Shown piece after piece: positions 7,655-20,593 of a DNA stretch of 21,591 bases (position 1 is the stretch's first letter; each line of letters starts with the position of its first letter). The translations under genes and the position numbers were made by a program. Below the pieces are notes generated by a model, which saw only the letters and a list, made by a program, of their open reading frames with translations, did no database searches and was not told the DNA's origin. This stretch comes from a virus, in IMG/VR virus record IMGVR_UViG_3300009181_000407, positions 1 to 21,591 of that record; one strand, given 5' to 3'.

Positions 7655-10600
7655 ATGGCACGGGTAAATATTCCGGGAGTAGGCTATGTGTCGTTCTCAG
7701 ATAAGTTGTCGGACGAACAAATTCTTGCCCAAGCGCAAGTTATACAAGAGCGGGCGCAACAGCCTTTATACGACCCTAGAGATTTACCAACTAGCGAACT
7801 TATTAAAGGCGGTTTTTCCCGTGGGCTAGAAGGTCTTAAAGGTACAGTTTTTGATTTACTTCCTGCGCTTGGCGCGTCCATGTTTGGAAACGACAAATAC
7901 GCCAAAGAGCAACTAAAAGAGTTTTCAGACCGCATGGCTGCGGCTGAGTTAGAAAATCCCGCTGCATATAAGTCTTACAAAGATATTAAAGGTAGAGGTA
8001 TTGGTGGCGCGTTTGACTTTGCCGCTGAAACATTTGGTGAACTCGGTCCTGATATTGCCTCCTTTATGTTTGGTGTGGGTGCTGGTACTGTTGTTGGTAA
8101 GAAAGTTGCTGCTAAGGGTTTAGAAAAAATTGCCGCAGAACAAGCCGCTAAAGTAGCAGCCAAGAATGGTTTAACTAAAGAAGCCGAAAGTAAATACGCT
8201 GAACGTCTATTAACCCGCGCTAAAGACGGCATCATTGGTAAACAGGCGGCAGAGCAAGGCGCTAAGGTTGGTCTTGATACTGGCTTGTGGGGCACATCAC
8301 TTGGCACCAACGTGCCTGATGTATTTAATAGTATCTATCAAGATACTGGCACGTTAAACCCCCTCCTTGCGTTAACGATTGGACCGCTGGTAGCAGCGTT
8401 AGATACATACTTGCCTAGCAAGATGTTAAAACAACTTGGCCCATCTGGTAAGGCCCGTGTTGCTGCTGAGATGCTTCAGAAGTCTTCGGTTGTACCTATA
8501 AATTGGAAGAAAACATTTGCTGGTGAAGTGCTAAAAACTGCTGGTGGTGAAGGTCTAACTGAAGGCGCACAACAAGTTTTACAAATCCTTGCTTCTCAAA
8601 TAGCAGGGGATAAAGACCCGTTCTTTTCAGAGAAAAACGTAGACGGCATCATTAACTCAGCCCTTAAGGGTTTTGTAGGCGGTGGTACATACGGCATGCC
8701 CGGCGGAGCCTTGGAAGCTAGGCGGATTAAAACCGAGCGTAATAGACAAATTGAAGAGCGTAAGGCTCAGCAAACAACCACACAGCAAACAAAACAAAAC
8801 TTACAACTAGGGTACGCACCGTTTACCCCTGTAGTTTTCCCAGACGGTTCAGTTGCTAATACACAAGAAGAACTAGACGCTTATCGGGCACAACAGTTCC
8901 AACAACAATACGCGCCACAACCTGCTGGTAAACAGATGCCCTTGCAGTTGGGCATGTCCGCTACACCTACTATGCCGGTAACGCCACAAGGCGAGGCATA
9001 TTCAGACATCCAATCAATGCGTGCGGCACAAGAACAAGCCGCTGCTGAAGCAGAGCAACGTGCGTTCCAAGAGAGAACCGCCCCACAACAAGTTGAACAG
9101 CAGACTCGAGAGATGTTCCCAGAAGCACTTGGGCTTGCTCAGTCACAGCAACGTGTTGGTGCGTTACCTACTCAAACTCAAGAAGCTGCAGCCGAACCAG
9201 CACCAGCCGAATTTGGTACAGTGCTTGATGCTTCTGTCTTGCAAAGAACTGGTCTCAAACCACAGTCTGGTTTCTTTAAGCAACTTCTTAACAAGGACAT
9301 GTCTAATCCAGAGGACCAAGCCGCTGTACGTGCCGTACTTGTACAAATAAGAACCAACCCAAACTTATCTGAGTCTACGAAGCAAGCCATCGAGGGGGTG
9401 GCTATGCAAGCGTTTGGCGCACTCGCTAAACAACAAGAGATGTTTGGCCCCCGTGGAGGCATACTTAAAGGAGCCGATGTTGGAAGAACAATTTCTAGAC
9501 CTGTCAGTGAACCAACTGGAACAAGCGTTCCAACTACTGTCGAACCCACAAGTATTGACCAAACCGCCGAAGGAGTTGAGCCGTCTGAGCAGGGGGGAGT
9601 GGGAAGTGCTGTCCGATCTGCTTTCGAGCCTGCAGTTAGAGAAGAAGTACAGCCAGATACATTAACCCAAGAAGCTCCCGCTCAAGAAGATGCACTTGCC
9701 GTTGCCACTAGAGTTGCCGCGCTCAGTGATGAAGAAATACTTAGCAACATGGCACAGTCCAAGACGTTGCTCAATGCTGTCATTGACGAACTTGGCATAG
9801 AAATACCCGGTCACACTAAGAATCGCAACGACAAGAACGCTCTTGTAACGAAGAAATACTACATACAAGAGCACTTAAAAGGTCTGCAAGAGGCGCCAGC
9901 GCCGGAGGAACAAGATGCTATCCAAGCCGAACTGGATGCGAAACTGGGCAAAGAAACTGCGCCTGTTGTGGCGCGAGTCGCTCCCGCTAAGGAGGGAACT
10001 ACTGAAGGAGTTTCTAAAGGAACTGATAAAGGCGGCGCTAAGGCAGTGGCTGAACCTGCTGCTAAAACTACCCGTGCCAAAAAGAGTAAAGCACCGAGCC
10101 CTGCTAAGACTACTGAAACTGTAGATGTTGATAAGTTACTAGAAGAAGCGGATGAGATTCCGCTAGAGATTCCTAAAGCCGCTAAATTTGATGTTAGTGG
10201 TGGCTATACAAACTTTGCCAAGAAGGATATAGAGAACATTGACGACAGCATCGCAGTAACAGATTTGTTGCGTACCAAAAAACTAACCGAAATTGCTAAA
10301 GCTGCAAAAACTTATTTTGGCAAGATGCCTCGTTTGGTAGATAACCTGCTGAACATGGCATTTGATATTGTTTATGAAACCCCACAATTTAAACGCACAG
10401 ATGAATCTTCTGAAGAAGCACAGTTCTTCAAAGGTATGAATGGTGAAAAAGCTAATGATGCGTTTAAGTGGGTGCAGAACAACCTAAGTCCAGAAACTAA
10501 CAAAGCGATACGTGAATTTATTCGTCGTTTTGAAATTGCACGGGATACGACTAACGACCAACAGTTTATGGATTTGATTCGGGACGGTATTTCCGGCACC

Positions 10601-13600
10601 AGAGAAAACTACGACGATGAAACCGTCAAGAGTTATATCAGAGCGCAAGAAGCAGATGCCAAGACTAGGAAACTCCTTGACAATGCTGTATCTCGCCTAG
10701 CACACGGACTGCACCCAATCATCATTTCTGCGCTCCAAGCAGGTGACTTACAAACCGCGTTGCGCTTGTTGTCTGCTAGTTCAGACACATTTGTATCTAC
10801 TACCGCTGCTAAGTTAGCAGGTGTTAGCCCCGATACTAAAGTAGTTATAGAGGAAGACCTCGTTGATGAGAACGGTAAACGCGTTCCGGGCTTCTTTAAC
10901 CCACAGACTAATACCATTCACTTAGACTCTGTGACCGGTATGAATAGCCACGTGTTACTGCATGAGGCTGGGCACTCTGCTATGTCGCATGAGTTGGATA
11001 ATCCTAATAGTGCGTTGGCTCGCCAACTACAACAGATACTTGACAAAGTAAGAGATAGCCTAGGTTCTGCTTATGGCGCTACTGACGTACATGAGTTTGC
11101 TGCTGAGGCTTGGGCAAATAAAGAATTCAGAGCAAAGTTGCAGTCTATGTACCCTGATGGTGGCAACATAACTGCATGGGATAAATTTACCCGTGCTGTA
11201 GTTAACTTCTTCCGTCGTTTAACTGGTAAAGAATCAAAGCCGTTAACTTCTGCCTACGATGAAGTTGACCGTATATTGTCTGCAATCGTGTCTCCTGCAC
11301 CTGATTCACGCAACGCTGGTGTGCTGTACGCACAGGCGGCTAACAAGAGCGCCCAAGTATTTTCATTTACCGACAGAATGATTAACGCTATTCCAATGTT
11401 GGGTGAGGCTCAAAAAGACGCATTGAGTGGTGGTATCGCTCGCGGCTCTGAAGCAACTAAGTCAGCGTTGTTTTCTGTGTTGCCTATGCACGCATTGGGT
11501 GAAGTTGCAGACAAAGTATTCCCCGGCCTTGGCTCAAGGTTTAACACGCTTATCAACGAACGTGCCGGTTACGAGAACAAGTTAAACCGTGGTATCGACG
11601 CTGTTGTTACTGAAGCTAAACATGCTATCAATACTCGTCCTGAGCAACGCGAAGCGTTCAACCGTGTTGTTAACGACAGCACGATGGCTGAGGTAGACCC
11701 AACTAAACCAATGTCTGCTTATAAAGAGAAGGAAGACATTGAAGAGTGGAAGAGCCTTAACGCACAGTACAACAAACTAGATAAAGTTTGGAAAGACTTG
11801 TATGTCACTATGCGTGATGCAAACAAGAAGATGTATAACGAAGTCAAGGCGGCAATCGAAGCACGTATTGACGAGACTGGGCTAGATGGCAAGACCAAAA
11901 TATTGGTTAAACAAGACATCATGAAAAAACTTGCCGAGCAAGGCATGATTGACCCATACTTTGCACTCGGTCGTGAAGGTAAGTTTTGGTTAGCCTCCGA
12001 CTACACAGATAAGAACGGACAAAAGCAATTTACTGTTGAGGCATTTAAGTCTCCACGCGAGCGTGCGCGTCGCCAAGAAGAACTTAAAACGCTAGACCCA
12101 AAGGCACGGGTTGATGTTTACTCTAACGTAGATCAAATCAACTTCCGTAATGCACCGTCTGGCTCGTTTGTAAACAGCGTCTTGAAGATCATGGAAACCA
12201 ACGGTGTGCCTAAGCAGGCTATCGACGAGACCATGCGGTTGTTCATTACTACTTTGCCTGAGACTGCGTTTGCTAAGTCGTTCCAAAAACGTAAAGGCAC
12301 CGCTGGCGCTTTGACCGATACGATTGGTGTGTTTGAACGCAAAATGCGTAGCACTTCTCATCAAGTGTCCAACATGTTGTACAACCCCAAATTGACTGGG
12401 GTAGTCGATAGCATGACCCTAAAAAGCGAGGAAGCCGCCAAGAGCGGTAAAGATAATGAACTTGAAGCGCGTTATGTAAACGAGTTCAAGAAGCACCTAG
12501 ATTACGTACGTAACCCAACCAAAAATGATATTGGTAGTATTCTGACTTCCGGCGCATTCTTCTACACGCTGGGCTTCAACATCTCTTCCGCTATTGTTAA
12601 CATGGCTAACGTGCCGATGATTGTGGCACCGTACCTCAACGGAAAATACGCTGATAGTAATGTTTCGGGCGCTATTGGTAATGCTTCTAAGGTATTTCTT
12701 GGTAGTGGTACTAAAGCCACTATGCCCGTACTCGGTGCAGATGGTAGGACTTCAATGATGGATGTGATGCCGTCTATTGCTAACTACGCACCGGATTCGG
12801 CTATGGGTAAGAAGTACGCAACTCTTATCCGTATTGCTGACGACCAAGGTCAGTTGAATCGTTCCCAGTTGTATGAAATTATCAACGGAGATACTCGCAC
12901 AGGCACGCTTGCCAAAATAAATGCTATGGCTGGTTGGGCTTTCCATCACGGCGAGCGTATGAACCGTGAAGTAACCATGATTGCGGCGTATGACCTTGAG
13001 TTGGCTAAACTTAAAAAACAAGGCATCACAGGTGAAGCGGCTGAAGTTCAAGCTGCCAACAATGCAATCTACACAGCAGAACTTACTAACGGTGGTATAT
13101 CTGCAGCCGCTGCGCCACGTATAGCGCAAAGTTCATTTGGTAAAGTGCTATTCATGTACAAGCGCTACGGCGTTTCGATGTACTACATGTTGTTTAAGAC
13201 AGCCAAGGATGCCCTTGCAAATACCGACCTATCTCCAGCCGAAAGAAAAGCCGCATGGAAACAACTTGGTGGTATTTTTGGTATGACCGCGCTCATGGCG
13301 GGTGCTCAAGGTTTGCCGTTGTACGGCTTGGCATCTATGGTCTACAGTTTGTTCTGTGATGACGACGATGATGATTTAGATACCGTGACTCGCAAGTACA
13401 TGGGTGAGTTTATGTTTAAGGGTCCGATTGAGTATTTCACTAATCTATCTATTGCCAGCCGTATCAGTTTGAGTGATTTGATTGTTCGGGATACCAAAGG
13501 GGGTTCTACCGCAGGTAGTTTCTCTCAGCAACTACTTGCCGCAATCGGTGGCCCGGTAGTCGGTGTAGGTGATCGTATCCAAAGAGGTTATAGCAAGATG

Positions 13601-14098
13601 GCTGAAGGCCACTTCATGCGCGGTCTTGAAGACATACTTCCTGCTTTTGCGGCTAACGTGCTTAAAGGCGCAAGGTATTTAACCGAAGGCACTACGACTC
13701 TGCGTAATGACCCAATCACTGGAGACGTCAGCGTATGGAATGCAGGTGCTCAAGCATTTGGATTTGCGCCAGCCGATTACACCCGTCAGATTGAAGAAAA
13801 CTCTCGCCTAAAAGGTATTGATAAGTACACCAATCAGACAAGCACTAAATTGCGTCAAAGATGGAACCTTGCACGTACCTTGGGAGACACGGGTGGTATG
13901 GAAGAGGCACGTAATGATTTGCTAGAACTTGGCTCTAAACATCCCGGACTCAAGCTAAATGCAGGCACTATAGAGAGCTTACTGCAAGACTCTAAGCGCG
14001 AGTACGACAGAGCCACTAAAGAGATGGCGCACGGGGTGCGATTCTCTAAGAAGATGACTAGTGAACTCAAATCCCGTTCGGCTGAATACGATCAGTAA
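7655..14098 (+). CDS. Giant internal virion protein with HEAGH zinc-metallopeptidase domain and LPD-like C-terminus
   Basis: A 2147-residue protein, about 30% of the window. Residues 1-25 (MARVNIPGVGYVSFSDKLSD) resemble the start of other large phage ejection proteins. Hydrophobic segments lie at 130-148 and 234-249. Residues 370-560 are Gln/Glu-rich, and 600-860 are acidic, Ala/Pro/Thr-rich and probably disordered. The metallopeptidase domain covers roughly 1060-1190, with zinc ligands H1103 and H1107, catalytic E1104 in HEAGH, and a third ligand probably E1147 or E1151 in HEFAAEAW. Helical regions follow. From about 1640 to 2147 the sequence resembles a large-polyvalent-protein-associated domain (SSFGKVLFMYKRYGVSMYY near 1825), with a six-Asp run at 1902-1907. 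It takes the place of T7 gp16, but I see no lytic transglycosylase. Ejection with the DNA and cleavage of a host protein or sibling virion protein is inference. Confidence 0.7.
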   Translation: MARVNIPGVGYVSFSDKLSDEQILAQAQVIQERAQQPLYDPRDLPTSELIKGGFSRGLEGLKGTVFDLLPALGASMFGNDKYAKEQLKEFSDRMAAAELENPAAYKSYKDIKGRGIGGAFDFAAETFGELGPDIASFMFGVGAGTVVGKKVAAKGLEKIAAEQAAKVAAKNGLTKEAESKYAERLLTRAKDGIIGKQAAEQGAKVGLDTGLWGTSLGTNVPDVFNSIYQDTGTLNPLLALTIGPLVAALDTYLPSKMLKQLGPSGKARVAAEMLQKSSVVPINWKKTFAGEVLKTAGGEGLTEGAQQVLQILASQIAGDKDPFFSEKNVDGIINSALKGFVGGGTYGMPGGALEARRIKTERNRQIEERKAQQTTTQQTKQNLQLGYAPFTPVVFPDGSVANTQEELDAYRAQQFQQQYAPQPAGKQMPLQLGMSATPTMPVTPQGEAYSDIQSMRAAQEQAAAEAEQRAFQERTAPQQVEQQTREMFPEALGLAQSQQRVGALPTQTQEAAAEPAPAEFGTVLDASVLQRTGLKPQSGFFKQLLNKDMSNPEDQAAVRAVLVQIRTNPNLSESTKQAIEGVAMQAFGALAKQQEMFGPRGGILKGADVGRTISRPVSEPTGTSVPTTVEPTSIDQTAEGVEPSEQGGVGSAVRSAFEPAVREEVQPDTLTQEAPAQEDALAVATRVAALSDEEILSNMAQSKTLLNAVIDELGIEIPGHTKNRNDKNALVTKKYYIQEHLKGLQEAPAPEEQDAIQAELDAKLGKETAPVVARVAPAKEGTTEGVSKGTDKGGAKAVAEPAAKTTRAKKSKAPSPAKTTETVDVDKLLEEADEIPLEIPKAAKFDVSGGYTNFAKKDIENIDDSIAVTDLLRTKKLTEIAKAAKTYFGKMPRLVDNLLNMAFDIVYETPQFKRTDESSEEAQFFKGMNGEKANDAFKWVQNNLSPETNKAIREFIRRFEIARDTTNDQQFMDLIRDGISGTRENYDDETVKSYIRAQEADAKTRKLLDNAVSRLAHGLHPIIISALQAGDLQTALRLLSASSDTFVSTTAAKLAGVSPDTKVVIEEDLVDENGKRVPGFFNPQTNTIHLDSVTGMNSHVLLHEAGHSAMSHELDNPNSALARQLQQILDKVRDSLGSAYGATDVHEFAAEAWANKEFRAKLQSMYPDGGNITAWDKFTRAVVNFFRRLTGKESKPLTSAYDEVDRILSAIVSPAPDSRNAGVLYAQAANKSAQVFSFTDRMINAIPMLGEAQKDALSGGIARGSEATKSALFSVLPMHALGEVADKVFPGLGSRFNTLINERAGYENKLNRGIDAVVTEAKHAINTRPEQREAFNRVVNDSTMAEVDPTKPMSAYKEKEDIEEWKSLNAQYNKLDKVWKDLYVTMRDANKKMYNEVKAAIEARIDETGLDGKTKILVKQDIMKKLAEQGMIDPYFALGREGKFWLASDYTDKNGQKQFTVEAFKSPRERARRQEELKTLDPKARVDVYSNVDQINFRNAPSGSFVNSVLKIMETNGVPKQAIDETMRLFITTLPETAFAKSFQKRKGTAGALTDTIGVFERKMRSTSHQVSNMLYNPKLTGVVDSMTLKSEEAAKSGKDNELEARYVNEFKKHLDYVRNPTKNDIGSILTSGAFFYTLGFNISSAIVNMANVPMIVAPYLNGKYADSNVSGAIGNASKVFLGSGTKATMPVLGADGRTSMMDVMPSIANYAPDSAMGKKYATLIRIADDQGQLNRSQLYEIINGDTRTGTLAKINAMAGWAFHHGERMNREVTMIAAYDLELAKLKKQGITGEAAEVQAANNAIYTAELTNGGISAAAAPRIAQSSFGKVLFMYKRYGVSMYYMLFKTAKDALANTDLSPAERKAAWKQLGGIFGMTALMAGAQGLPLYGLASMVYSLFCDDDDDDLDTVTRKYMGEFMFKGPIEYFTNLSIASRISLSDLIVRDTKGGSTAGSFSQQLLAAIGGPVVGVGDRIQRGYSKMAEGHFMRGLEDILPAFAANVLKGARYLTEGTTTLRNDPITGDVSVWNAGAQAFGFAPADYTRQIEENSRLKGIDKYTNQTSTKLRQRWNLARTLGDTGGMEEARNDLLELGSKHPGLKLNAGTIESLLQDSKREYDRATKEMAHGVRFSKKMTSELKSRSAEYDQ

Positions 14099-14189: not shown

Positions 14190-14462
14190 TTACAGAATTC
14201 TCCAAAAGCGCATACCTAACTTCCCGCTTTCTATACGCTCGTAGCCTTTAAGCGTTAAATTTTTATAATCTGCAATCTTTTGCACTTGTTTACTCAAGAT
14301 TGGTAAGTTAACAGCGGGTACAAAAAACGACATCCCTATATCTAGGGAGTCCCAATTTATGCCAATAACCACACCGTCAGGGCAGACTTGCCCTTCACGC
14401 ATCACCTTCAAGAACGGCTTTGTGACCTGCGGCGGCTGCGATTTCTTCTTCAACGTCGTCAT
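14190..14462 (-). CDS. Small conserved-looking hypothetical protein at the end of the replication operon
   Basis: A 90-residue protein of unknown function. After a basic, flexible N-terminus (MTTLKKKSQPPQVTKP) the sequence reads like a compact alpha/beta fold: WDSLDIGMSFFVPA, then a helix LSKQVQKIADYKNL, then KGYERIESGKLGMRFWRIL. The Shine-Dalgarno AAGGA lies 8 nt before the ATG at 14462, which supports this start although it overlaps the end of the primase-helicase gene by 68 nt. An alternative start at 14402 (MREGQ) would reduce the overlap to 8 nt, but its Shine-Dalgarno spacing is only about 2 nt. It is the last gene before the leftward terminator. I recall similar ORFs in other phages without an assigned role. 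Confidence 0.6.
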   Translation of the reverse strand: MTTLKKKSQPPQVTKPFLKVMREGQVCPDGVVIGINWDSLDIGMSFFVPAVNLPILSKQVQKIADYKNLTLKGYERIESGKLGMRFWRIL

Positions 14463-17256
14463 CTAAAAAGTCCTTGCAGTTAATCCATAGCACATCTAGG
14501 GACGGTAGATTCATACGGGTGCCTTTGCCCATACGCTTCTTCTCTATCTTTGACTTGGAACGTCCACGTTTTAGCGCATCGACAAAGCCTTCGTAGTTGA
14601 CCTGCTTCTTTACGCACCAATCCCTAAGTGGACTGAGGTAGATGTATAGCATCTTTATGTCGTATTCGTAGCGTGCCATGTACGACACTCTCGGCGTAGC
14701 GTCCGGAATAATCAAGTGGTCTGCGTCGTCCCGCTTCAATGTGCGGGAATCATCCGTGCTCTTAATACGCAGGATATTGTTGTAGTTCTCAGCCAAGAAG
14801 TTAGTGAGCGTTGTCTCGGCGTCGACGTCCATAGATTTGACTTGATCTTGTACCCCGCTAACTACACCCTTGAGCCAAGTGACCACAGCCTTGAGGTCAT
14901 AGTCAACTAAGCCAGCCCGCTTTGCCGCCATCAACCCCATGATGCCATCTGCCGCTAAGACCGAATGAAACCGTGCGTCAGGTCCAAACCCGCACATCTG
15001 ATCTAGTTTGTGTTGGGTAGATTTGTACAAAGCCTTGATACCAGCAATGTCCTGCATCACGTACTGCATGTATGGCAGATATGCGTGCCCGTAGTTGTTT
15101 AGAAGTGCGTCACTTAATATGTCAGTATCGACCTTGTTGAGTCCGGGGACGGGTTTGGCACGTACTTCCAACAAACGCATGGCTTCACCTTTAGGCAGAG
15201 CCTTGTAGGTTCCCATCTTCTCCATCATGGATGAGTTGCCTGTACTAACTGCCGCTTGTTTCCATGGCTCGCCACGGATTCGCTCTGAGTTGGAGTTCGG
15301 CCCCATGCGATTGCGTTGCATACCTGATGTGTACTGATACAGAAAGTCGCTCAACTCCTTGGCGGTGGAGTTAGTCATCTCGTCCATAGGTAGGAAGATG
15401 TTGTTGTAGAGTTCCGCACGGTTCATCTTGGATGCCATAGTGTCGGATTCTTTAAGCACAATCTTGGTCGGGTCGCCCCAAATACTAGCCCCCGCATACA
15501 ACGCAGTTGTCTTGCCGATTCCTGAGTCCGGACTGAATATGTGCATCAACGCCCCATTTACAGGGGTGAAGTCGGTAAAGATAGAGCCAAAAGATAGTCC
15601 GATTACAAACTGGTGCATCTCCATTCCGGGGCGGTTGTAGAAGTTCATGGCTTCTTTCCATGCCTCTAGCGTTCCTTTGGGTTGAAATGCGTGAAACAGA
15701 TGTGCTGTAGCTGATGAGGGTGGATTGTGGTCTACCCGATCTGCACGAATTTCTTTATCCCCTAGCACGAATGCTTCGTGCTTATCATCTATCCAACCAA
15801 ATTGTCTGTGAGCCGTGTCCGCTCTTGCGTTAAATTGCATGTGGTTTACCCATGTTGTTATATATGACATTAGTTCGTCGGTTCTAATCATCGCCACGCC
15901 GTTGGATGACATGTGCTTACGCAGTTCATCCTTAGAGGTAGCAGACGCAAGAGGTATCGTAAATTCCCGCACCCCGTCACGAGGAAGATGTAGCCTTACG
16001 ACTACCGCCTCACCCACAGCAGAGTCCAGTAACCTACGAGTTACGTACATATCGTTGTGATAGATCATCACTTCGATCTCGTCTTCTTGCTTGATAACCC
16101 GCTTAAAGATACCTCCGTTCTTCCCCCTGAAATAAGGTTCGGGATACTTCGGTATAACGTATGTTTGTGTGTGCCCTTGATTCACATTCGCCGGGGCATC
16201 TTCTACGATGTTATCTTCCTCAGTTGCTTCTTGCACTTCTCGACCAAGCACAATCGGCGATTTGATTGAGCCTTTGCTTGGGCATCCGTCGCAACCTTTG
16301 GGGTTGTATTCTTCAAACTTAGCGCAGGTATAAGGGCCGCCCTTGATACCACGTACTTTCCTGTCAGCAAATTGTGGGCTGTACTCAGGGTGCCCACTAG
16401 AAATCTTGTCAATAGCCTTGTCTGCGTCTACGCAAAATTTAGCGATAGATAAGCCTGCTCTCCACATCGGTTCCGACATGGTTGCTTGGTTCTCGTAAAT
16501 ATATCCTAGTTGTTGGCATCCTTCTCCCTTCACAGTTCTAATCATGATGGTCTTAAACCGATTTGTGTAGTTCCCAAGGATTGCCTTGGTTACTTCGTCC
16601 ATCTCTCCACGTGGGATGTAGGGCCGCCGCTCAATGAGTGGGTCACCAATAACATCTTTTAGTGTGTCAAGCTCATACGGTACGGAACCCTGGCCTAGTA
16701 AACTGACAGGGCGTGCCACGTCGTTTTTGTAGTTTAGAGTCCCCGGAACCCGTAAGATTCGTACCGCATCCGCCGTTACTACATGGTCGATGTGCAAGTC
16801 ATGGTCGTCACACATACTCTTTAACTTCTCAGCCAAAGGCAACCATGTTTCACGTGAAACGGGTTCAGTAAATGCCCAGTAGACGTGCACACCCCCACCG
16901 GAGTTAACCAGCGTAGGCTTCGGCATCTTGGTCGCCTTGCAGAACTGTTTTAAGGCAGTAATCGCTTCGGCTTGTGTCGCGTATGGTTTATCTTCTCCGC
17001 AGTCTATGTCTAGGAACAACGATTTCAGTTGTTTGACGTTAGGTGCTTTGCGTGACTTGCCATCCTTGAATGTTGCTAATGCGTAGTACGCATCGTACCC
17101 CTCGTTTTTCAAATTCTCGGCTACTGCTACTGCGTCTTCCACTGTGCGGAAGAACTTTTGTACAGGCTTGTCTGACCCATTTTTTAGCCCAACTATGCAG
17201 TAGTATCCGTCGTCCCCGAGGACTTGCTGTAAAAATTCTAAATTGTCCATAGCCAC
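14395..17256 (-). CDS. Primase-helicase fusion: AEP-type primase plus DUF927-like AAA+/SF3-type helicase
   Basis: A 953-residue replication enzyme. Residues 1-200 form an archaeo-eukaryotic primase (Prim-Pol) domain: the metal-binding pair D83/D85 in FLDIDCG, the histidine motif SGGGVHVYW at 119-127, and RILRVPGTLNYKN at 166-178. A possible zinc site uses C311, C322 and C325 (GCDGCPSKG). Residues 370-540 lead into the ATPase, with Walker A SPDSGIGKTT (K582, T583) and Walker B FLPMDEM (D625, E626). The C-terminus (from about 790) has small helical domains. It should unwind DNA and make primers at the phage fork. The start is GTG at 17256 or ATG at 17250. Both are close to a weak GGGTGG site, and I cannot decide between them. 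A perfect 14-bp parS-like palindrome lies within codons V133-T137. Confidence 0.85.
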   Translation of the reverse strand: MAMDNLEFLQQVLGDDGYYCIVGLKNGSDKPVQKFFRTVEDAVAVAENLKNEGYDAYYALATFKDGKSRKAPNVKQLKSLFLDIDCGEDKPYATQAEAITALKQFCKATKMPKPTLVNSGGGVHVYWAFTEPVSRETWLPLAEKLKSMCDDHDLHIDHVVTADAVRILRVPGTLNYKNDVARPVSLLGQGSVPYELDTLKDVIGDPLIERRPYIPRGEMDEVTKAILGNYTNRFKTIMIRTVKGEGCQQLGYIYENQATMSEPMWRAGLSIAKFCVDADKAIDKISSGHPEYSPQFADRKVRGIKGGPYTCAKFEEYNPKGCDGCPSKGSIKSPIVLGREVQEATEEDNIVEDAPANVNQGHTQTYVIPKYPEPYFRGKNGGIFKRVIKQEDEIEVMIYHNDMYVTRRLLDSAVGEAVVVRLHLPRDGVREFTIPLASATSKDELRKHMSSNGVAMIRTDELMSYITTWVNHMQFNARADTAHRQFGWIDDKHEAFVLGDKEIRADRVDHNPPSSATAHLFHAFQPKGTLEAWKEAMNFYNRPGMEMHQFVIGLSFGSIFTDFTPVNGALMHIFSPDSGIGKTTALYAGASIWGDPTKIVLKESDTMASKMNRAELYNNIFLPMDEMTNSTAKELSDFLYQYTSGMQRNRMGPNSNSERIRGEPWKQAAVSTGNSSMMEKMGTYKALPKGEAMRLLEVRAKPVPGLNKVDTDILSDALLNNYGHAYLPYMQYVMQDIAGIKALYKSTQHKLDQMCGFGPDARFHSVLAADGIMGLMAAKRAGLVDYDLKAVVTWLKGVVSGVQDQVKSMDVDAETTLTNFLAENYNNILRIKSTDDSRTLKRDDADHLIIPDATPRVSYMARYEYDIKMLYIYLSPLRDWCVKKQVNYEGFVDALKRGRSKSKIEKKRMGKGTRMNLPSLDVLWINCKDFLDDDVEEEIAAAAGHKAVLEGDA
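16846..16861. promoter_or_regulatory. parS-like palindrome (ParB-binding-site core) inside the primase-helicase gene
   Basis: The 14-bp palindrome GTTTCACGTGAAAC (16847-16860) is identical to the core of the chromosomal parS consensus TGTTTCACGTGAAACA known from Bacillus, Caulobacter and most bacteria. Including flanks, 15 of 16 positions match. It encodes V-S-R-E-T in the primase domain. No parA or parB gene is visible in the window, so ParB would have to come from the host or from elsewhere in the phage genome. The identity is seen directly. Function is unproven. Confidence 0.5.
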
Positions 17257-17345: not shown

Positions 17346-18254
17346 TTAAGCATCGTCCCATTCGCCAACCAAGTCTTCTAACTTGGGTTCATTGGCTACG
17401 GGTGCTTTCTTGGGTGCGGCTTTCTTTGGTTCATCAACTTCCTCAGCTTCTACCTTTGCGGGCTTGGCTTTAGGGGCTTCTTGCGCTTCTGCTTCGGGTG
17501 CAAACAAGGAGGGTTTTGGCCTGTCCTTGACACCATCGGTTTGTGCAACAGTCATTGTGATTGCGCTGACTGCTTCGGGTGAGTCCTTGAGTTGTTGGAC
17601 TGTGTTGAACTCTTCCTCGGTCACGGGGCGCACAGGCTTGAACACCAATTTAGGTGTAGGGCTTGCAGTATCGAAACGCATCTCGGTCACAACACCAGTA
17701 ATAGGTGTGCCGTGGTTCTTCAAATGGCGAGCATAGGCTTGCAAGGGTAACTTGCCCTTCTCACCATCACCAAACACAGATGTTGGGGGCAACACTAGTT
17801 GGTAGACTTCTTGTTTTTCCACTTCACCATCAAGCACGACGGCTAAACGCTGTTGGTAACGGCATGCACGGCTGTCGCCTTGACCAGAACCCTTGATGTT
17901 TTGTGGGCAACTCAAACAAGTAGCTGACTGCTTGTTCTCTTCCTTGACCTTTACATCGGGACGTTGGCTATCTGCTGACCAACATGTTGGGGATACGGCT
18001 TCACCTTCGCTATAAGTTCCTGCGTAGTAGATACGTGAAACTTTCGGTGCGGCTTTGATGATGACAACATTCATCGCACGCTCTTCTGACACGCGGTACT
18101 CTTTACCGCCAATGAACTCACGAAATACTCCGCCCTTGATACTGATACGACGTGAACCTAAGCTCTCTCCAGCTAGGGCATTCGTTGCATCATCTGCGTT
18201 TGCGTTCTTGAGGTATGCGGGTAGTCCGCCTTTAAACAATGCTAAATCACTCAT
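17346..18254 (-). CDS. Four-cysteine protein with acidic tail, candidate phage ssDNA-binding protein
   Basis: A 302-residue protein. Residues 35-215 look like a beta-rich folded core, with four cysteines in a zinc-finger-like arrangement (C91, C113, C116, C131; TCLSCPQN at 112-119). Residues 250-292 are Ala/Pro/Lys/Glu-rich and probably disordered. The last residues, LEDLVGEWDDA, form an acidic tip like that of T7 gp2.5 and other single-strand-binding proteins, which use it to contact polymerase and helicase. Its place directly upstream of the primase-helicase fits such a role. I do not recognise an OB-fold signature with certainty, so the function is inference. The start is fixed by AAGGAG at 18262-18267, which overlaps the stop of the upstream HTH gene. 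Confidence 0.6.
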   Translation of the reverse strand: MSDLALFKGGLPAYLKNANADDATNALAGESLGSRRISIKGGVFREFIGGKEYRVSEERAMNVVIIKAAPKVSRIYYAGTYSEGEAVSPTCWSADSQRPDVKVKEENKQSATCLSCPQNIKGSGQGDSRACRYQQRLAVVLDGEVEKQEVYQLVLPPTSVFGDGEKGKLPLQAYARHLKNHGTPITGVVTEMRFDTASPTPKLVFKPVRPVTEEEFNTVQQLKDSPEAVSAITMTVAQTDGVKDRPKPSLFAPEAEAQEAPKAKPAKVEAEEVDEPKKAAPKKAPVANEPKLEDLVGEWDDA

Positions 18255-18265
18255 CTACATTCTCC

Positions 18266-18538
18266 TTAAATATCATCGTTGGGGTTAAAGTTTAAAGTCA
18301 TTTGAGTAGAACCCTGTGGGGGTTTTACCGTAAGACTTCCGTCTGCTTCTTCTCTCACAAGCGTTCCGCCGTTTAGGACTCGCATCGCCTCTTCCACTTC
18401 GCTAATCTTGAAACGGTAGACACCGCCAATCTTTAATGAGGGGATTAGGTCTTGCCGAATCCATGCGCGGACAGTCGATATGGACACCGCAAAATGCTTT
18501 GCCACACTTTCTATCGGAACGAAAGATTCATCAACCAT
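18266..18538 (-). CDS. Excisionase/MerR-type helix-turn-helix DNA-binding protein
   Basis: A 90-residue protein. Residues 6-52 carry a winged helix-turn-helix of the excisionase-like class (HTH_17 style): FVPIESVAKHFAVSISTVRAW, then IPSLKIGGVYRFKISEVEEAM. Here the Val-Ser-x-Ser-Thr-Val-Arg-x-Trp helix recognises DNA and the GGVYRF hairpin is the wing. The C-terminal 35 residues are polar and probably flexible. No integrase or attachment site is visible, so a transcriptional or replication-accessory role is more likely than excision. The start has AAGGAG 5 nt upstream (18544-18549) and overlaps the previous gene by 8 nt, which suggests coupling. Confidence 0.8.
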   Translation of the reverse strand: MVDESFVPIESVAKHFAVSISTVRAWIRQDLIPSLKIGGVYRFKISEVEEAMRVLNGGTLVREEADGSLTVKPPQGSTQMTLNFNPNDDI

Positions 18539-19030: not shown

Positions 19031-20569
19031 TTAGTCAAGTAAATTCTTGTAAAGTTCAACTAACTTTACATGATCGTCTATACGGTTGTCAAGCATTTTG
19101 TATAGGTGTTTCTCCGCATTTGAACCCTGTAATCGCACAATCGTGACCGGATGGCGTTGCCCCGCTCTATGCGCTCTTGCATTGGCTTGGGCATAAGTCT
19201 CTAGGCTTGGGGTCGGCCCCCACCAAACAACTGTATCCGCCGCTGTCAAGGTCACGCCATGAGCCGCCGCTTGTGGTTGGATTATCAAAATCCTTGGGTC
19301 ACTGGTATCTTGAAAATTCTTAAATATTTCAGCGCGTTTGTGGGCGGGCACATCACCATTGATGATCTCGGTTGAGAACCCGTCTGCTTCTAGCTTTTGG
19401 CTGAGAATCCGGATCGTGTTTTTAAATGGTACAAAGATCAATATCTTTTGTTGTGTCTCGTCGATCACTTCTCTCAACACCTTATAGCGGTTCTTGATGT
19501 CGAACTCCAAGGTCTCGCCAGTATCAGAGTACACCGCGCCACAAGATATTTGCAGGAGTTTGCTCAATCCGACTGCAGCGTTAACTGCCGTAATTTGCTC
19601 CCCCGCCGTTTGCACAACAAGTTGCTTGCGTAACAACTCATAGTATTTCTTCTGTTGGGGGGTCAGTTCAACCTCCCGTGAGACATACGTCATCTCAGGT
19701 AGGTCAAGGCATTCCTCTTTGGTAAACCGGATGGCGGGTTGTAGGGCTTCGTAAACTACCTTGTCCGCATGGGGGCGTGGCACCCACTTGAACTGGGTTA
19801 TCTTGTACATAACCATGTCTTTAAATGCGCTGTAGAACTTAGGCACACCGCTAGGACTTACAAGTTTCGCTAGTCCATAGGCGTCCACGGGGGATTGAGC
19901 CGCAGGTGTTCCAGTCAGCATCCAGAGCCATGTCTCAGGCTTTAGAATACGGTTTAACGTCTTCCAACGTGTTGTCTGCGCGTTCTTGTACGCATTGGCT
20001 TCGTCGATAACGATTAAATCAAACCCACCATTAGCCACCGCTTCTTGAACAATCTCCACCCCGTCATAGTTGATGATGACAAACTCGGCGTCCGATGCGA
20101 TCACTCGGTTGCGCTTCTCTTTAGAGCCATAGGCAATGTCCACGGTGCGGTGCATAGCAAACCTAAACAAGTCAGCACGCCAAGCAGAATCCATGATGGA
20201 CAGTGGGCAGATAACCAGTACACGGCGAATCCGACCAAGTTTCATCAGATAGTCAGCCGCCCAAATAACAGACCCCGTCTTGCCTGTGCCTTGCTCATTA
20301 AGGCAGAAAGCCCGCTGGTGCAGGGTCAAGAATGACGCAGTAGTCTTTTGATGCTCGAACGGTTTGTAGAGTCCGGGCCATCCGTACTGTCCCATGATTG
20401 GTGATGGGATGTTTTTTATTTGCAGGTTCTTAAGCACCCGTGCTTCATCTAACCCCCACTTCACCGCTACTTGGTGCTCTCCAATTTGTCTGCTCTTTGG
20501 TATAACCGTTGTCACCTTATTGGGGTGACGTAGGTTCAATAGCAGTATCTTGTTCTCTACGATTTCCAT
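19031..20569 (-). CDS. SNF2-like superfamily 2 DNA helicase/translocase
   Basis: A 512-residue helicase from the preferred ATG at 20569. Motifs, numbered from that ATG: Q-type entry PFEHQKTT near 71-78, Walker A NEQGTGKT (K97, T98), motif Ia VLVICPLS, motif II D189-E190-A191-N192 followed by xxKN as in SNF2 enzymes (usually DEAH), motif III LTGTP near 218-222, motif IV KILIFVPF, motif V ITLTAADTVVWW-like (VTLTAADTVVWW), and motif VI QANARAHRAGQ at 461-471. It probably remodels or unwinds DNA during phage replication or recombination, possibly with the nearby RecB/Cas4-like nuclease (inference). A longer GTG start at 20593 is possible, but AGGAG at 20574-20578 lies inside that extension and points to 20569. 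Confidence 0.88.
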   Translation of the reverse strand: MEIVENKILLLNLRHPNKVTTVIPKSRQIGEHQVAVKWGLDEARVLKNLQIKNIPSPIMGQYGWPGLYKPFEHQKTTASFLTLHQRAFCLNEQGTGKTGSVIWAADYLMKLGRIRRVLVICPLSIMDSAWRADLFRFAMHRTVDIAYGSKEKRNRVIASDAEFVIINYDGVEIVQEAVANGGFDLIVIDEANAYKNAQTTRWKTLNRILKPETWLWMLTGTPAAQSPVDAYGLAKLVSPSGVPKFYSAFKDMVMYKITQFKWVPRPHADKVVYEALQPAIRFTKEECLDLPEMTYVSREVELTPQQKKYYELLRKQLVVQTAGEQITAVNAAVGLSKLLQISCGAVYSDTGETLEFDIKNRYKVLREVIDETQQKILIFVPFKNTIRILSQKLEADGFSTEIINGDVPAHKRAEIFKNFQDTSDPRILIIQPQAAAHGVTLTAADTVVWWGPTPSLETYAQANARAHRAGQRHPVTIVRLQGSNAEKHLYKMLDNRIDDHVKLVELYKNLLD

Positions 20570-20573
20570 GATT

Positions 20574-20578
20574 CTCCT
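20574..20578 (-). promoter_or_regulatory. Ribosome binding site deciding the helicase start
   Basis: AGGAG on the minus strand, followed by AATC and then ATG at 20569. It makes the ATG, not the in-frame GTG 24 bases upstream, the likely start. The 13 bases AAAACAGGAGAAT here are identical to the leader of the coiled-coil gene. Confidence 0.6.
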
Positions 20579-20593
20579 GTTTTTATAAAGCAC

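Follow-up and report, generated by a model that had tools for sequence, protein, structure and literature searches.

A host-type parS sequence is maintained by selection on DNA within the primase gene of phages without detectable ParA or ParB

Introduction

The parS site and its binding protein ParB form a nearly universal bacterial centromere system, and a position inside a gene is common for chromosomal parS. Both parS itself and phage-plasmids with a ParABS system of their own are already known. In phage-plasmid systems, such as P1 parABS, N15 sopABC, and the mycobacteriophage ParABS prophages (PMC7157519), a centromere-like site likewise resides on a phage genome. In these systems, ParA and ParB are element-encoded and serve the prophage state through distinct site sequences of their own. 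Dif-exploiting filamentous phages (IMEX) borrow a host chromosome-maintenance site, with dif/XerCD integrating the phage. Phage cytoskeletons are represented by PhuZ of jumbo phages (PMC4244570) and AlpC of the CGP3 prophage (PMC4446434).

The locus described here shares its 14-mer with chromosomal parS (ParABS/Spo0J-type); 29 of the 44 dereplicated relatives also have its perfect 16-mer, TGTTTCACGTGAAACA (a count without correction for shared ancestry). Unlike chromosomal parS, the phage site is present in a single copy within a primase gene, in a 63-65 kb genome without detectable parA or parB, and not at the host oriC. Unlike the phage-plasmid systems, the carriers in this primase family have no detectable ParA, ParB, or tyrosine integrase. 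As in IMEX, a phage copy of a host site would give access to a host DNA-handling protein, but, unlike dif/XerCD, parS/ParB would load clamps without integration. The purpose shared with PhuZ and AlpC would be intracellular placement of viral DNA; unlike in these cytoskeletons, host machinery would act by way of a single 14-bp site and without a phage protein. In the open-access literature, we came across no description of a host-type parS conserved in phages without ParABS; subscription papers and preprints were outside the scope of the search.

Results and Discussion

A parS core in frame within a phage primase gene

The window analyzed here is an IMG/VR record, a 21.6 kb fragment of a tailed-phage genome in which the plus strand carries structural genes and the gene for a 2147-aa giant protein, and the minus strand carries the replication module. 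The features relevant to the site are the following:

16847..16860, no strand assigned: parS core GTTTCACGTGAAAC (full 16-mer, 16846-16861), identified by sequence, with synonymous positions retained in 83/87 homologs and 42/44 dereplicated genes
14395..17256, minus strand: PrimPol-helicase gene carrying the site (Pfam DUF927, 3e-21; PHROG DNA primase/helicase; AlphaFold)
17346..18254, minus strand: conserved protein of the replication module, encoded upstream of the primase gene (ORF; no Pfam family), containing the half-site at 18033-18041
18266..18538, minus strand: HTH_17/MerR-like small DNA-binding protein (Pfam, 3e-8)
19031..20593, minus strand: SNF2-type helicase of the same replication module (Pfam, 1e-20)

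A direct check of the sequence confirmed the parS core palindrome at 16847-16860, the sole match in the whole window at up to 3 mismatches. The surrounding 16-mer, TGTTTCACGTGAAACG, is identical to the full consensus at 15 of 16 positions. Taking either TGTTTCACGTGAAACA or its core as the sequence criterion for a host-type chromosomal parS, the window site qualifies (14/14 core, 15/16 full). The 14-mer is read in frame within the minus-strand ORF (CCC GTT TCA CGT GAA ACA TGG, P VSRET W) and encodes VSRET, residues 133-137 of a 953-aa protein.

The C-terminal part of this protein contains the DUF927 helicase-like domain, and the AlphaFold model of N-terminal residues 1-330 (pLDDT 76.6) reads as an AEP/PrimPol domain, with cyanophage S-2L PrimPol (6zp9) as the best PDB match. 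VSRET maps to a strand-helix junction of this predicted domain, where relatives have many other peptides (VSRGE, ISREE, LSREQ, VTAEA, and others); therefore, the protein can do without the VSRET residues, as judged from the relatives' peptides and the predicted structure. The product of 17346..18254, which may be a single-stranded-DNA-binding protein, has homologs in site carriers and non-carriers alike. The HTH_17/MerR-like protein is similarly present in both and is thus not a site-specific partner. GC skew was dropped as an origin marker, its extremes tracking switches of gene strand. On the plus strand, the giant (polyvalent-type) protein (7655-14098) contains a zinc-metalloprotease-like HEAGH motif and is likely to be an ejected or internal virion protein.

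The first-pass annotation had reported the exact core with 15 of 16 consensus bases and a half-site, ACGTGAAAC, at 18033-18041 in the upstream gene; both are present as described. Its arithmetic was also right: about 8e-5 occurrences of the 14-mer are expected per window with uniform bases, and VSRET permits this spelling at 1 in 288 synonymous choices. Once VSRET is given, codon usage in the family predicts the exact spelling with a probability of 0.9-2%, so a single window is inconclusive with respect to chance; the comparison across relatives is conclusive.

Selection acts on the DNA letters and not merely on the protein

We scanned IMG/VR in a codon-blind manner for any GTN TCN CGN GAR ACN TGG NTN CC spelling of VSRETWxP, leaving out AGN serine and AGR arginine codons. 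Among the 90 places found, 87 were homologous primases at the same position, with local identity of 48-100%. The exact 14-mer was kept in 83 of these 87 VSRETW homologs, and the other four, from two lineages, differ by CGT->CGG alone. The variant in these four (L210, L280, L224, L272), GTTTCACGGGAAAC, consists of one ParB-type half-site and one half reading GTTTCCC. The adjoining codons vary: CCC, CCT, CCG, GCT, TCT, or GGT precedes the 14-mer, ACA, ACG, or ACT encodes the threonine, and L, M, I, or V follows.

After dereplication at 95% nucleotide identity, 44 genes remained, with a median pairwise nucleotide identity of 58%. In these genes, the codons were GTT in 44/44, TCA in 44/44, CGT in 42/44, and GAA in 44/44, whereas the top-codon fraction at 101 other conserved columns averaged 0.56, and one column alone reached 0.90. 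From the codon usage of these 44 genes, 0.9% of VSRET genes would be expected to have the exact spelling. Parsimony on a tree from which the site was left out gave 0, 0, 2, and 0 codon changes at V, S, R, and E, against a mean of 9.9 and a minimum of 2 at 100 other conserved columns on the same tree. Recent gene conversion was ruled out as the source of this identity: deep carrier lineages share only 44-54% of codons at shared residues.

The bases flanking the 14-mer lean toward the full 16-mer consensus, which the 29 genes mentioned above match perfectly. The preceding proline is encoded by CCT in 31/39 genes against a 30% background and the threonine at the end of the 14-mer by ACA in 34/44 against 28% (neither corrected for shared ancestry).

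Selection on the DNA letters thus holds the exact 14-mer constant at synonymous positions, even though the relatives are deeply diverged. These codon counts, together with the tree and the unbiased sample below, satisfy the requirement that a host-type parS be kept by selection on DNA. The first-pass annotation had allowed that the match could be due to chance, which was not borne out, and had named free variation of the synonymous bases under a retained VSRET as the refuting outcome; the opposite was observed.

The site is all or none with VSRET

To avoid bias toward the site, we compiled 108 relatives by means of peptides outside the motif, with no limit on codons. The 14-mer was present in 24/24 members with VSRET and in 0/84 of the others, and no copy was found anywhere else in the available DNA of these 84. 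No VSRET member among the 108 used AGN serine or AGR arginine codons. Members with VSRE but without the threonine (L011, L318, L327, L328, L331) have drifted codons, so that the residue at position five is coupled to the silent letters at positions one to four, a link readily explained by a DNA site alone. One relative (L339), in which the peptide is VPRET, carries GTTCCACGTGAAAC, built from GTTCCAC half-sites, to which several chromosomal ParBs bind (PMC7022226). The family tree implies at least 10 changes between presence and absence of the site, whose location never differs.

Carriers encode no detectable partition system

Seven carriers of 61-67 kb each contain exactly one site and no further match at up to 2 mismatches. 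A complete, terminally redundant relative (G024, 63,004-bp period) has a second copy, which is its terminal repeat; beyond this, neither extra sites in carriers nor substitute sites in non-carriers were found. ParB_N gave 0 matches in all primase-family records searched, including the seven carriers, and ParA (AAA_31) gave 0 in 11 records. No tyrosine integrase was identified in the seven carriers; serine integrases, replication-initiator genes, and repressor genes were not systematically covered. Positive controls were detected. The follow-up that the first-pass annotation had proposed, a search for more sites and for parA/parB, therefore yielded a single site per genome and no partition genes. 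With neither ParB_N nor ParA detected, the carriers do not qualify as phage-plasmids with ParABS.

Comparison of carriers with non-carriers showed a single gene tracking the site, that for an M15 peptidase. Because the carriers lack ParB_N and ParA and no other conserved gene tracks the site, the binder is probably a host protein, with ParB the most likely candidate, although there are no binding data. A phage-encoded ParB too diverged for Pfam is not fully ruled out.

Among the close relatives with near-complete genomes, G004 (61 kb) and G010 (66 kb) have neither the site nor any near match. Given that 84 of the 108 family members, these two included, live without it, the site is not essential for this type of phage. 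The location expected of a chromosomal parS, near oriC of a bacterial chromosome, does not apply to a site on a phage genome; the site is parS-like in sequence and selection and is not a chromosomal centromere by location. What is established for these phages is a selected parS sequence that is all or none with VSRET, present once per genome, in near-complete carriers without detectable ParB, ParA, or tyrosine integrase.

Searches for the host were of limited help. A scan of genome contigs (prophage/MAG) with the primase gave no match, and the terminase matched one Rhodobacterales MAG contig at 72%, which may be a binning artefact. The nearest cultured relatives found by terminase (45-46%) are the Pelagibacter phages HTVC023P and HTVC027P, with genomes of 57.6-60.9 kb; unlike the primase family, they have a different primase and replication module, and the 14-mer of HTVC027P lies in another gene.

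A proposed function in host ParB recruitment

We consider it likely that the 14-mer, which selection on DNA maintains, functions as a host-type parS, a landing site for host ParB through which phage DNA is handled by host machinery. That the host chromosomal ParB binds the site and loads as a clamp is an inference in which we have high confidence, in the absence of binding data. The suggestion of the first-pass annotation that such a site could recruit host ParB is thus supported by selection on the DNA letters, binding itself being inferred; each benefit that it listed (positioning or segregation, altered transcription, ParB titration) is inferred only.

In the proposed mechanism, host ParB would bind the phage parS, load as a CTP clamp, and spread over the replication module. 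The ParB-coated phage DNA would be handled by the host ParA gradient and/or the SMC loader. Phage genomes would stay on the nucleoid, be separated or organised while they replicate, and be distributed among daughter cells when infection is slow or stalled. This would amount to one-site "hitch-hiking" on the host ParABS by a phage without a partition system of its own. Handling by host ParA/SMC as the benefit is inferred and cannot quite be called probable; it is favored, also by inference, over control of transcription or replication, then titration, then shielding. Nothing in the genome layout indicates partition, positioning, or SMC loading, and a single site may be weak. Considering that many relatives lack the site, the benefit could be conditional, perhaps on the host or its growth state.

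Alternative explanations

Under transcription or replication control, spreading ParB clamps would damp or time the replication operon, or ParB/ParA would affect a nearby replication start. The site always occupies the same spot of the primase gene inside the replication module, and in the Microbacterium phages described below, it likewise lies in a gene near the SSB gene. There are precedents: Pseudomonas aeruginosa ParB represses genes adjoining parS3/parS4 (PMC7022226), and F SopB silences kilobases (PMC7333895). However, the chromosomal ParBs of B. subtilis and S. pneumoniae usually have little effect on adjacent genes (PMC7022226), and the fixed position may merely reflect shared ancestry, making this explanation unlikely.

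Titration is also unlikely. Multicopy phage parS would act as a decoy drawing ParB, along with ParA or SMC, off the host origin and upsetting segregation or division to the benefit of the phage. The exact high-affinity consensus, the multicopy state that phage DNA attains, and the three sites of Ruegeria phage RpAliso (see below) are compatible with this possibility. However, a decoy should profit from several sites, so that the single copy in the primase family, even in 61-67 kb genomes, is evidence against a pure decoy, and many relatives have no site at all.

Less plausible still is shielding, whereby a ParB coat would hide phage DNA from nucleases and defence systems or mark it as self. 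SopB spreading does block gyrase and restriction enzymes (PMC7333895), but there is no direct evidence, and coverage from a single site would be limited to some kilobases out of 63-65 kb. Similarly doubtful is use of the site by a phage-encoded protein, perhaps in replication or as a signal for packaging, with a convergent match to parS. The site is in a replication gene, and the operon encodes an HTH protein; against this stand the exact identity to the host consensus, including the flank preference, the fact that relatives lacking the site encode the HTH and replication proteins equally, and the same 16-mer in unrelated phages.

Chance, with the primase requiring VSRET and codon bias making the spelling common, has in its favor the non-negligible probability for one sequence (0.9-2%) and the protein-driven match in the HTVC027P group, but is all but excluded by the replaceability of VSRET, by exact retention in 83/87 and 24/24, and by the tree-based counts.

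parS sites in other phages

Across the collection, the parS 16-mer was found in at least 120 viral contigs, whereas two control palindromes matched to it in composition gave 1 and 5. The ParB_N domain was detected in 3 of 50 parS-bearing viral contigs, some of which may be prophage edges or host DNA.

Among cultured phages, the perfect 16-mer is kept in the Microbacterium phages Paschalis, Jollipop, NoodlelyBoi, Smarties, Metamorphoo, and Gina (6/6 with VSRET), within an apparently disordered linker of variable length (DVSRETS) in an HTH protein (Quhwahvirus/Metamorphoovirus) encoded close to the SSB gene. In the Paschalis genome (69% GC; site at NC_047976:42258, L388:1501-1516; homologs L391-L397), the chance of the parS spelling is 2e-6. 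Tyrumbra has TGTTCCACGTGGAACA, a symmetric change in both half-sites; Sunny, Jayden, and Megan are without the Microbacterium-type site. Fireman carries the variant TGTTCCATGTGAAACA. Paschalis gene 83 (L489:48906-49565) encodes a 219-aa protein with a ParB_N domain and no other Pfam domain, which might be the phage partner at this site and could act with host ParB or compete with it.

Ruegeria phage RpAliso (L400, OR257569) contains three intergenic exact parS cores, at 140696, 147106, and 148088, all within the final 9 kb of the genome, and no ParB_N was found in it. A repeated element, ATCTTCAAGCCGAA..GGCTTGC, lies after each core; one of its copies is diverged.

Pelagibacter phage HTVC027P was withdrawn as a convergent case. 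Its core (L385:16413-16426), first taken as intergenic, is in frame within an unannotated Hjc/nuclease-like ORF (16171-16587; peptide FHVKHP). Relatives that retain FHVK show free variation of the silent letters, with the exact site in only a minority of them; the match is likely protein-driven rather than selected as a DNA site. The codon test can therefore fail, as it does in this group.

On balance, we lean toward a bolder reading, that several unrelated phage groups, namely, the primase family, the Microbacterium Quhwahvirus/Metamorphoovirus group, RpAliso, and probably many more, each placed a host-type parS to be handled by host ParB. If true, this would be a general, undescribed route of host takeover, in which the host centromere is borrowed via a short DNA site with no partition system of the virus itself, and viruses could enter the host segregation machinery with 14 bases. 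It would also offer a testable handle on phage DNA location in the cell and on ParB clamp action on foreign DNA; the cultured cases (Microbacterium foliorum phages and RpAliso) make experimental tests feasible now.

Several other viral contigs (L062, L107, L050, L120, L135), which may be phage, plasmid, or host DNA, contain 3-5 clustered parS cores within about 1 kb or pairs 24-26 bp apart. Two more groups of similar phage proteins (L101, L124, L154, L166, L203 and L097, L122, L194) include parS as VSRET in linker-like segments.
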